Shown here piece after piece: positions 9,301-15,300 of a stretch of DNA of 64,000 bases. Source of the stretch: Artemia franciscana (taxonomy: Eukaryota; Arthropoda; Branchiopoda; Anostraca; Artemiidae). The DNA lies in assembly GCF_032884065.1 (NCBI RefSeq), contig NC_088866.1:53452068-53516067 (forward strand), given 5' to 3'. The stretch's first letter is position 1, and every line of letters begins with the position of its first letter. The position numbers and the translations under genes were made by a program. A model generated the notes under the pieces. It was not told the origin of the DNA, did not search any database, and saw only the letters and a list, made by a program, of their open reading frames with translations.

Positions 9301-12300
9301 GGGGGGCACAGGGGGATATATAAATGACGACGGGGACACAGGGAATGTTCGATTAGCAATCACCATCAACAAAGCTCAAGGGCAATCATTAGAATCATGA
9401 GGTATAACTAAAAAAACTAAAAAAAGGTAAAAAACTAAAAACTAAAAAAAAGACCAATTCAAAAACAAATGTATATACAGACCGGGACACCGGGACACAA
9501 ATGACGACCGGGACACAAGGAATTCGACTGACGAAATTACAGATCGGGACACAAATGACGACCGGGACACCGGCACATAGGGAATATAAATGACGACACT
9601 CAAAGAGAAAGCGACCGGGACACAAGGAATGTTCGATTAGCAATCACCATCAACAAAGCACCGGGACACAAATGACGACCGGGACACAGGGAGTATAAAT
9701 GACGACCAGGACATAAGTAAAAAAAAAACTAAAAAAAGGTAAAAACTGCAAAAAAACTAAAAAGAAAAAAAAAACTAAAAACTAATAAAAAAACTAAAAA
9801 AACTAAAAAATTAAAAAGAAATAAAAAAGGAAAAAAATGAAAAATAAAGGAGAAAAACAAAACTAAAAAAAACGAATGTATATACAGACCGGGACACCGG
9901 GATACAAATGACGACCGGGACACAGGGAATATAAATGACCACCGGGACACAGGGACACAACTACAACGGGGACGCCGGGGGGCACAGGGGGATATATAAA
10001 TGACGACGGGGACACGGAATGTTCGATTAGCAATCACCATCAACAAAGCTCAAGGGCAATCATTAGAATCATGAGGTATAACTAAAAAAACTAAAAAAAG
10101 GTAAAAAACTAAAAACTAAAAAAAAGACCAATTCAAAAACAAATGTATATACAGACCGGGACACCGGGACACAAATGACGACCGGGACACAAGGAATATA
10201 AATGACACCCGGGACACTCAAAGAGAAATCACAGACTGGGACACCGGGACACAAATGACGACCGGGACACAGGGAATATAAATGACGACCGGGACACAGG
10301 GACACAACTACAAAGGGGACGCCGGGGGGCACAGGGGGATATATAAATGACGACGGCGACACAGGGAATGGTCGATTAGCAATCACCATCAACAAAGCTC
10401 AAGGGCAATCATTAGAATCATGAAGTATAGATCTGAATACGGATTGTTTTCCCATGGACCATTATATGTTGCATGTTCAAGAGTCGGTAAACCTGACAAT
10501 CTATTTATATGCACAGACAATGGGACAGCAAAGAATGTTGTATATTCGCAAGTTTTACGTAGTTAAAAACATATATATATATATATATATATATATATAT
10601 ATATATATATATATATATATATATATATATATATATATATATATATATATATCTATCTATATTCACAGGTGGGACATAGGGACACAACTACAATGGCGCG
10701 TAACTAATATGGCGCGTTACGACTTACGCGCGTGGGGGGCTTGGGGGCTTGAAGCGCCCCCACCAGCTAGGTGGTACGCCACCCCAACAGCTAGTAGGGA
10801 ATATAAATGACGACCGGGACACTCAAAGAGAAAGCGACCGGGACACAAGGAATGTTCGATTACCAATCACCATCAACAAAGCACCGGGACACAAATGACG
10901 ACCGGGACACAGGGAATATAAATGACGACCAGAACACTCAAAGAGAAATTACAGACCGGGACACCGGAACACAAATGACGACCGGGACACAGGGAATATA
11001 AATGACGACCGCGACACTCAAAGAGAAATTACAGACTGGGACACCGGGACACAAATGACGACCGGGACACAGGGAAACAACAACAACGGGGATGCCGGGG
11101 GGCACAGGGGGATATATAAATGACGACGGGGACACAGGGAATGTTCGATTAGCAATCACCATCAACAAAGCTCAAGGGCAATCATTAGAATAATGAGGTA
11201 TAGATCTGAATACAGATTGTTTTTCCCATGGACGATTATATGTCGCATGTTCAAGAGTCGGTAAACTTGACAATCTATTTATATGCACAGACAATGGGAC
11301 AGCCAAGAATGTTGTATATTCGCAAGTTTTACGTAATTAAATATATATATATATATATATATATATATATATATATATATATATATTCACAGGTGGGACA
11401 CAGGGACACAACTACAATGGCGCGTAACGACTTACGCGCGCGGGGGGGGCTTGGGGGGATGCGAAGCGCCCACACCAACTAGGTGTTGGGGTGGCGCAAA
11501 GCGCCACCCCAACAGCTAGTATATATATATATATATATATATATATATATATATATATATATATATATATATATATATATATATATATATATATATATAT
11601 ATAATGAAAAGAGAAATCACCAATGCTACAGCACAAACACAAAAAAAAAAAAAAAAAAAAAAAAAAAGGAGACAGAAGGAGAAAAGGAAGACTGTTTTCC
11701 TAAATTAGTGATTAATATAGACCAGCACTTGAATGAGGCCTTAACCCTACTCATCCATACAATCACATAGGTCAAACAGCATAGCCAGACACAATCAACC
11801 ATAAAGAATAATCCATGGACAGGCAGTCATGTCGTCAATAAGTATAAGTCGTCATTTACCAAACAATAGAAAAAATAATATAGACAAATAATTCAGAGGC
11901 AACACCCCCTCGCCCCAATATTCTATGACTAGGAGTTCAGGGATTATTTTTTCTTCTTTTCCTTGAGTATTTTCACATTAATATTATTATAAACTTTTAC
12001 CATTTTCTAGCTAGAAGTTGAATTGGAATGAGTTTGTGCAAAAAAGCGTGTTTTTATATTATTATTATATTATGAATATTTACCATAATATAGCTATAAG
12101 TCGGATTGGAATGGGTGTGCAGAAAAAAAACGTGTTGTTATTATTATTATTATTATCATGAATATTTATCATTTTTAGCTATAAGTTGAATTGGAATGAG
12201 TTTGCAGAAAAAAAACTTGTTGTTATGTTATTATTATCATGAATATTTACCATTTTCTAGCTAAAAGTTGAATCGGAAAGAGTTTGTGCAGAAAAAAAGG

Positions 12301-15300
12301 TGTTGTTATATTATTATTATTATCATGAATATTTATCATTTTCTAACTAAAAGTTGAATTGGAACGAGTTTGTGCAGAAAAAAAATCGTGTTGTTATATT
12401 ATTATTATCATGAATATTTACCATTTTTTAGCTAAAATTTGAATTAGAACGAATTGTGCATGAAAAAACGTGTTGTTATATTATTATTATTGTTATGAAT
12501 ATTTAACATTTTCTAGCTAAAAGTTGAATTGGAACGAGTTTGTGCAGAAAAAAACAGACTATCCATAGAAGTAGGAAACCTAACAAAGGAAAAAGAAGTA
12601 CATGAGTTTGAGAGGAAGAATTTGCGATCGGAACTCAAGGAATTAAAGTCCCGGGAAACCCAGTTGCTCACTGACTATTCAGAGCTCGAAGAAGAAAATA
12701 TTGGACTTCAAAAGCAAGTTTCTGCGTTAAGATCATCTCAGGTTAGTGCTGTTTAGCCTTAAGACAAAATTTATTCCTCGCCTTAGACCTTAGTACTTCC
12801 AGTGCTTTTATTGGCACACAAGGGGTCAGTGAGTAGCTTCCAATTATCCCCCAAGTGAGCTGCTGCATAGATATCCTACGACTCTGGTATGATATCCTAG
12901 ACCCATATGAAGGTCTTTTTTTTATCACGTTTTTACGTCCTACGGAGCGTGTTCTTTGGTCTTCTTCGGCGACGGTGCCTTCTGGTTGCCAGTGACACCG
13001 CCTTTTGGGAATCAATGGTCTGGCAAGTCGAGGATATGTCCAATTCGTTGTCTCACGAAGGAGGCGACGTCTTGTTGGTTTGTGTGTTACTTACAGTGTC
13101 ACTCCAGTTGATCCTTAGGACTCGGCGAAGACAATTTGTTTACAATTACGTTAATTATATGACATAAATCCCCTTAAAGGTTCCTTGGTCTTTAAAGACC
13201 AGGGCCCCTAGGGTAATTGTAATTTATTTTTGTATTTTTTGGCGTTTAAAAAACAATTTTGATTATTGATTTGCTTCCAAAGGACTACTTGACGTCTATT
13301 AAATTAATTATTTGGTTGTGCTTTAATTAATTATTGTGCTTTAAGTAGCTTCAAGTGTGCTTCGAGCTCATTACGCTTTTATGCCTTTCAGGAAATAAGA
13401 AGTATTAACAGTTTTCCCATAACATCATGGGCTTATTGTTGGAACGGTTTGATTTACCTAATAAAACTTTTTTGCTGTAATACCTCACTAATTGAACTTA
13501 GTAATAAGGTTATATATAAATGCTCATAGAGAAGTAAACTGTGACAATAATAGTCTATATTGGTTAGAATTTTAAAACTTTTGGTAAGTTTTATCTCACA
13601 ATAACGTTAAGATTTATTCATCATGTGTTAACCATGCAGAAAATACATGCCACTAATCCCTGCAAAGGTTCCTTGGTACATAAAGAAGGAGTAAGACATA
13701 CGACTCAATTAAACAGTATAAACGCTAACACAGAAATTGGAAAAGGAAAGGAAGTGAAAAAGAATCAATTTTCGTTCGAAGAAGCTAATTTAGTGACACT
13801 TTCGAGCTGATTGAGGCGTGACCAGCATTGCGAGGGGTTTGATATAAATTACCAATTTCCCGGCGAAATTGTACCACGAGAGACTAATTTGCACTTTCTG
13901 AACATCAGGTTAAAAATTGTGGCGTAACAAGAAGAAAATTTTCGAGAAACTAGAAATTGAACATGTATCCCAGTCAGAAAGAAGCAATTAAACCTAAAAT
14001 GTACTGGAAAATTTACATTGTACCCAATTGTTCCGTATTGAAAACATCTAATCATATGGTTTTGTAACTTTTATCGACCAGTTGTTTGACCAAAAATTGA
14101 CAATCCAGTCCTGAAAAGTCCAAGTAACAGTGGTGTTTGAACAATTGAAAACCCAATTGTTCCGTATTGTACCAGGACCCCTAAACTTTGCTAAAAACCT
14201 TACAATTGTACCGCGTTGACAACGATGGGCGTCACTCGTCGTTACAGGATTGAACGTCTGGCCTTAAGGGTGGCCTTACGATTGGATCAAACGGAATTTG
14301 AACATGATTTGCATTACGACCATGATGATAATTTTAATCAAAGGTAAAAGACGGTGGGATACTAATGGGCGGAGGGGGAACATCTTGAACTCTATAAAGA
14401 GTAAAAATATGTACCTGTAAGAATATGAATGACCTATATGTTATGTGAAACTTTTTACTAAACTTAAGTTTTAATAAACATTTTGTGTGACGCTTTTTTT
14501 GTAAAGTAGCCTTTAATAACTGTTTATTAATAGTGACTACTCCTTATTCATTTTTTGGTTACTATGGTTTTTTAATTCATATTAAATGAATTAAAAAACG
14601 TATTTTTTTTACCAAGGCACTTTTTATGGGTGAAGTTGTCATATAAACTTCGAAAGAGGTTCATTCGATGGGAAATTGAAAGTTTTAGCTCCCATTTTAA
14701 GAGTAATAATTGACTGGATGACAACCAGCTCCACTCCAGCGCCATCTTTTCTCCCTAAAAATATCCGCTCAAATTTTGTGATATCTATTTTGGTTAGCAT
14801 AGTTGAAAGGTCGAATAATGTTATGCAATTTGCTTATTGTTTACATATAATATCTGTTATCAAAAAGCGGGGGGGGTGGTGGTGGTGGTATGTTTGACCC
14901 TTGGTATCTGGAAAGGCCAAGGGCAATCAGATTAAATTTTCAGGGAATGTTGAAGCGAGTCCTGAACTAAATCAAAATAATGTGCATGCAGGCTGTTAAG
15001 GGCGTACTCAAGAATGGCTTAGGCCATCAAATTAAAAAAAATTTGTGGAATGGTAAGGGGGCTGATCAATTGACGCAAAGGCAATATCTACATACTACTT
15101 CTACTACTACGACAACTATTATTTTTACTGCAACTACTGCCAAGGCTAAACGTATTAATATTAGAATGTATATTAAGGAGAAGTTGAACTAAATCAAAAC
15201 ATACTATGTGCATACAGGTTCTCAAACGGGCGTATTAGCAATAGCTTAGGGACGGCCAGAGGATATCGTGTTGGAACCTTCAGGGCATGATGAGAGGGAT

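Follow-up and report, generated by a model that had tools for sequence, protein, structure and literature searches.

A tandem array of intron–exon junction copies in front of a BicD exon

The BicD locus

The window, that is, the whole 64-kb stretch of DNA that was analysed, carries the BicD gene on its + strand. An exon was placed at 3254-3394 (+; 47 codons, phase 0, donor CAG|GTATGA), where tblastn with a provisional Drosophila BicD probe gave a match of E 2e-13 ending at Drosophila residue 123; its translation was identical to Drosophila BicD, likewise a provisional reference sequence, at 30 of 47 positions. This exon spans about residues 77-123 of the Drosophila protein, so the coding sequence for residues 1-76 lies further upstream, and the junction described here need not be that of exons 1 and 2, as a first-pass annotation of this DNA had called it. 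An intron of 9,122 bp follows (3395-12516, +; boundaries from the sequence and the protein match) and leads to the exon of interest at 12517-12741 (+; 75 codons, phase 0, donor CAG|GTTAGT), which matched the PDB chain 9rvy_A (Drosophila BicD 125-198) with E 3.7e-15 and the Pfam family PF09730 (BicD) with E 9.8e-18. The first of the two exons stops at residue 123 and the second opens at residue 124 in the same phase (Drosophila residues 107-142 were taken from the PDB record, the tblastn probe itself being provisional). Because the residues abut in phase, the acceptor at 12515-12516 is well fixed by the protein match. The introns flanking this exon measure 9.1 and 4.1 kb.

In all six exon stretches compared, the gene was closer to Drosophila BicD than to human BICD2, with provisional references for both, which hints weakly at a protostome host; fast divergence of vertebrate BICD2 may have affected this comparison. 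Against the hint, when the ~33 C-terminal residues of one exon were compared, a mouse BICD1 fragment scored as well as Drosophila fragments (43.3 bits against 42.6 and 39.9, all from the PDB), so a lancelet host keeps some probability.

Seven copies of one splice junction

Directly in front of the exon at 12517, Tandem Repeats Finder reported an array at 11977-12555 (+) with a period of 85, 6.8 copies and a score of 749. The unit consists of the end of the intron and the first ~38 bp of the exon, and it occurs seven times in tandem, the seventh copy being the authentic exon start. The first base after the acceptor dinucleotide falls at 12011, 12094, 12179, 12261, 12347, 12432 and 12517, which gives spacings of 83, 85, 82, 86, 85 and 85 bp. 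The acceptor AG is present in six of the seven copies, and thus in five of the six upstream ones, copy 5 carrying AA. The first-pass annotation had described seven ~85-bp copies, the last of them the real BicD start, and an AG in five of the six others, and all of this was confirmed, by the repeat finder and the search described below, by the PDB and Pfam matches with the abutting residues 123|124, and by the acceptor bases themselves. It had also set the array at 12011-12555; the end holds, while the start lies ~34 bp earlier, at about 11977. The distance over which the decoys extend before the true acceptor is 506 bp, where 510 had been given.

Both strands of the window were searched with 47 bases around the true junction, allowing at most 13 mismatches. 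Six matches were found upstream of the junction, and none of 1000 dinucleotide-preserving shuffles gave any match. Beyond the array, neither strand of the 64-kb window yielded a junction copy at ≤13/47 mismatches.

The copies are not identical in their exon-derived parts. Those of copy 1 (12011-12047, +), copy 2 (12094-12131, +) and copy 3 (12179-12216, +) were identical to the true exon at 32/39, 28/38 and 32/38 positions; all three keep the AG, and in copy 2 the U-tract is broken (ATAATATAG). Copy 4 (12261-12299, +; 36/39) also keeps the AG and runs for 39 nt into the donor-like AAG|GTGTTG, and copy 6 (12432-12469, +; 33/38) keeps the AG as well. Copy 5 (12347-12387, +) has the exon part closest to the true one (38/39), yet it is the copy that has lost the AG. 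The sequence behind the five AG-bearing decoys, which had been described as identical, thus agrees with the exon at 74-92%. Over the last ~35 intron bases, copies 1 to 6 matched the true intron end at 28/35, 30/35, 31/34, 31/35, 31/35 and 31/35 positions. A tree of the whole units grouped copies 2 and 3 (0.96), with other splits poorly supported. The trees of the intron and the exon parts disagree, in a tree that is weak on so short a unit; this would fit exchange between copies, a point on which a unit of this length does not let us insist.

Assemblies often miscount the units of a tandem array, and the exact number of copies here is uncertain. That the array as such is an assembly artefact is nevertheless extremely unlikely, since misassembly of one sequence would give copies without differences, and the upstream copies differ from the true junction at 4 to 15 of 70-72 aligned bases, with indels in addition.

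Origin of the copies

The 13 codons that the exon shares with the array were compared with Drosophila BicD 124-136 (LRHELERVRNERD), and seven of the 13 residues were identical; when the peptide was permuted 100,000 times, 4 permutations scored as well. Against a provisional human BICD2 sequence the same codons gave 3/13, so strong conservation of this stretch does not extend to all animals. Because the match is in frame and no gap separates this exon from the one before it, the exon start is taken as ancestral coding sequence and the copies as derived from it. The first ~39 nt of the exon at 12517-12741 are likely to be the source of the array, and these 13 codons support the proposal of the first-pass annotation that the array arose when the junction was duplicated in tandem. 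It could be argued that the order was the reverse, with the exon start captured from a satellite that already existed. Nothing beyond the similarity between array and exon speaks for such a capture; against it stand the 7/13 match in frame and the join without a gap to the neighbouring exon, and the unit has no other copies at ≤13/47 mismatches in the window (a search of the window and not of the whole genome). We hold capture to be very improbable; most likely, to judge from the sequence, the exon is older than the array and seeded the copies.

Comparison with known systems

Tandemly duplicated intron-exon boundaries have been described in amphioxus as 'mirages', in the globin gene BflGb6 (PMC3087553) and in Adh3, TnC and PGBD5 (PMC3902484), and the BicD array is built like them, so the kind itself is not new. 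In the BicD array the repeated unit spans an intron-exon boundary in tandem, one copy is the authentic exon boundary (by protein match), and many but not all copies carry the splice dinucleotide (five of the six upstream). In BflGb6 each repeat joins an intron 3′ end to the 5′ part of the exon that follows, with six and three units in two haplotypes; the units are 81-100% alike, splice signals are found in many but not all of them, the authentic copy is transcribed, and RT-PCR suggested that the arrays leave splicing undisturbed (PMC3087553). The BicD unit resembles that of BflGb6, as described there, in its intron 3′ end joined to an exon 5′ part, in its authentic copy and in its partial loss of splice signals. 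The edge units of BflGb6 are described as escaping homogenisation; similarly, the intron parts of BicD copies 3-6 are the most alike (0.91-0.97) and the edges less so, whereas the BicD exon parts do not follow this pattern. In contrast to the amphioxus cases, the gene is BicD, the unit measures 85 rather than 150-160 bp, and the array was seen at the DNA level. The phylum perhaps differs too, which the comparison of BicD with the Drosophila and human proteins weakly suggests.

Other duplications at splice sites are related less closely. In potato RdRp, a tandem duplication across the boundary between an intron and the exon downstream of it is reported to have led to a new spliced intron (PMC4974935). 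The duplicated segment crosses the junction there as it does in BicD, the potato segment carrying branch site, tract and AG, but it is a single duplication whose new intron is spliced, whereas BicD has six extra copies that were seen at the DNA level. The cases reported from Drosophila genes differ from the BicD junction array in that coding sequence, carrying a proto-splice site, was duplicated (PMC2891723). Among the matches listed in the open-licence literature, only the reports on amphioxus and on potato RdRp describe duplicated intron-exon boundaries, which does not prove their absence elsewhere. A pattern scan of viral and prokaryote contig collections gave 19 and 83 matches and no relative, as expected for such collections.

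Fate of the decoy acceptors

When translated in the true exon's phase, the AG-bearing copies 1, 2, 3, 4 and 6 run into a stop after 6, 1, 1, 29 and 24 codons, respectively. The earlier statement that decoys lead into stops thus extends to all five; the stops had been located in the spacer, which is correct for decoys 4 and 6, whereas those of copies 1-3 lie inside the exon-derived part, and these three are for this reason not kept as coding sequence. From the divergence elsewhere in the unit, 4.5 of the six upstream copies would be expected to keep the AG, and five did (P(≤5) = 0.83). Selection to keep the decoy sites, or to remove them, is thus not indicated, with the little power that six copies afford.

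Taking together what is directly established, namely the copies, the match to their BicD source, the phase, the stops and the neutral level of AG retention, we consider it probable that the array is a neutral minisatellite which would have grown by unequal exchange, with the last copy used and errors at the decoys left to decay. A segment of ~85 bp across the 3′ splice junction of the BicD exon would first have been duplicated in tandem, and the copy content would then have been altered by unequal exchange or slippage, in the manner of a minisatellite. Selection would act on the last copy alone, because it alone precedes the rest of the exon and the donor, and the other copies would drift. Stray use of a decoy would bring an early stop and decay of the transcript. 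Most likely the cell ignores the copies, and splicing tolerates the array.

Choice of the true acceptor

The features of the last acceptor were compared with those of the upstream copies. A stronger acceptor sequence was rejected as the cue, as the pyrimidine fraction is 0.59 at the true site and 0.47-0.71 in the upstream copies; moreover, each of the seven copies has a branch-point-like motif, 11 or 12 bases away from the exon. Decoys 4 and 6 look as good as the true site in pyrimidine content and in this motif, which counts against the neutral-minisatellite account given above. RNA structure that hides the decoys was rejected as well, since 11977-12600 folds at -96.5 kcal/mol, less stably than every one of 20 shuffles (mean -111.5 kcal/mol, z +2.9). 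The AG-free stretch upstream of the true acceptor, 67 nt, is the longest of the seven, the six others having 41-54 nt, a difference that was noted post hoc. The true exon start carries three AGs in the stretch that corresponds to copy 6 (12432-12469); copy 6 lacks all three and has gained one, and the AG-free interval ahead of the true acceptor is longer for it, possibly by chance.

From the last acceptor the exon would be 225 nt long, against 310-731 nt from the AG-bearing decoys. Most likely the spliceosome would define the exon as a whole, starting at its donor, given the long introns on both flanks (9.1 and 4.1 kb), and would pick the last acceptor, which alone lies at an ordinary exon distance. 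In transcriptome data, the sites nearest to each other across the exon are favoured where introns are long, and with long introns on both sides the preference for the upstream acceptor is significantly reduced, a reversal not being stated (PMC9225289).

The arrangement has a counterpart in the laboratory. Duplicated 3′ splice site competition substrates are said to go back to Reed and Maniatis in 1986. In the beta-globin substrates of a later report, the acceptor is duplicated in cis as in BicD, and the upstream one carries a partial exon (PMC5389562). These are two-site constructs, and the BicD array is a natural one with six upstream copies. In substrates whose upstream site kept no more than 14, 55 or 205 nt of the exon, the distal site was used exclusively, and we read 'distal' as the downstream site; splicing of the duplicated substrates was very inefficient, and double occupancy inhibited it (PMC5389562). 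The distal choice, so read, supports use of the last copy in BicD, and the inefficiency leaves room for a cost; by analogy with these substrates, the harmlessness of the array may be doubted.

One could go further and regard the array as a working brake, in which the decoys would bind U2AF/U2 and slow or divert splicing, and the copy number would set the level of BicD through stalled or decayed transcripts. The simultaneous occupancy of duplicated 3′ sites, with inhibition of splicing in vitro (PMC5389562), would provide for this, as would five decoys that have an AG and all lead to stops. However, the AGs have been kept at the neutral expectation (five against 4.5), the U-tract of copy 2 and the AG of copy 5 have been lost, and the amphioxus RT-PCR suggested no interference with splicing (PMC3087553). 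We consider a brake quite unlikely and prefer a neutral array whose last copy would be spliced.

Copy 4 deserves separate treatment, as it is the only one of the six upstream copies in which a donor at the exon-spacer joint and a kept frame occur together. It has 39 nt, in frame and open, followed by AAG|GTGTTG, and it could thus be on its way to becoming an exon; splicing of the upstream exon to copy 4 and on to the true exon would insert 13 residues and would make a new short intron of 217 nt (12300-12516) out of the remaining array. The geometry fits, a new intron arose in an analogous way in potato RdRp (PMC4974935), and the route resembles one proposed for the amphioxus globins (PMC3087553). 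Against this, length and frame are correct in one of six upstream copies only, the donor is weak, as it does not have the usual consensus bases at +4 and +5, and an insert of 13 residues would be expected to shift the register of the coiled coil. Recruitment of copy 4 therefore appears highly unlikely, and we retain the reading of a neutral array.

Five AG-bearing copies before one BicD exon amount to a natural splice-site competition experiment, which can reveal a cue beyond the acceptor sequence that picks the correct site, and the array is possibly an intermediate on the way to an intron gained through tandem duplication. In a protostome host, the range of mirages would be wider than the lancelets of the cited papers, and the novelty may lie in the host; in a lancelet, the array would be one more mirage. 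The most far-reaching reading, that mirages arise in protostomes too and that the BicD array is either a set of naturally competing acceptors, the number of which influences how much BicD mRNA is made, or the source of copy 4 as an in-frame 13-residue microexon, is rather unlikely.

Other repeats in the window

A search of the window with 18 stretches from the boundaries of nine BicD exons (E ≤0.01, excluding self rows) gave tandem copies for the acceptor at 12517 only (six rows); in the remaining six rows the matches were short, 20 to 46 bases, and lay elsewhere or in inverted orientation. Several exon ends in this comparison are approximate, and it missed a 20-base overlap with a 34-bp duplication before 16856. 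Tandem Repeats Finder gave no row besides the array that overlaps the ends of the nine exons as placed. The 34-bp unit is duplicated at 16748-16816 (97% match), ~40 bp before the next BicD acceptor at 16856, which it excludes, and it is a further tandem duplication near an acceptor in BicD.

The intron before the array is rich in repeats. A unit of 307 bp occurs there in two copies at 7037-7651 (99% match). Repeated peptides are encoded at 5542-5754 (+), 5958-6176 (-), 6774-7064 (-) and 10351-10563 (+), with a further copy in another frame at 11210-11479 (+); we take them to resemble the C-terminal end of Helitron helicases, and a Pfam search with two of them gave no match. Downstream of the peptide copy at 11210, a G+C-rich hairpin-like stretch, a CTAG and a TA microsatellite were observed at 11400-11603, an arrangement like that at Helitron 3′ ends. 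Elsewhere in the window, tandem repeats of 108 bp (42840-43157, 2.9 copies, 100% match) and 66 bp (43287-43421, two copies, 98% match) reflect either recent growth or an assembly effect, and pieces of a non-LTR retrotransposon lie at 57669-59658 (-), with matches to reverse transcriptase (PF00078, E 4.6e-19) and endonuclease (PF14529, E 1.4e-12).
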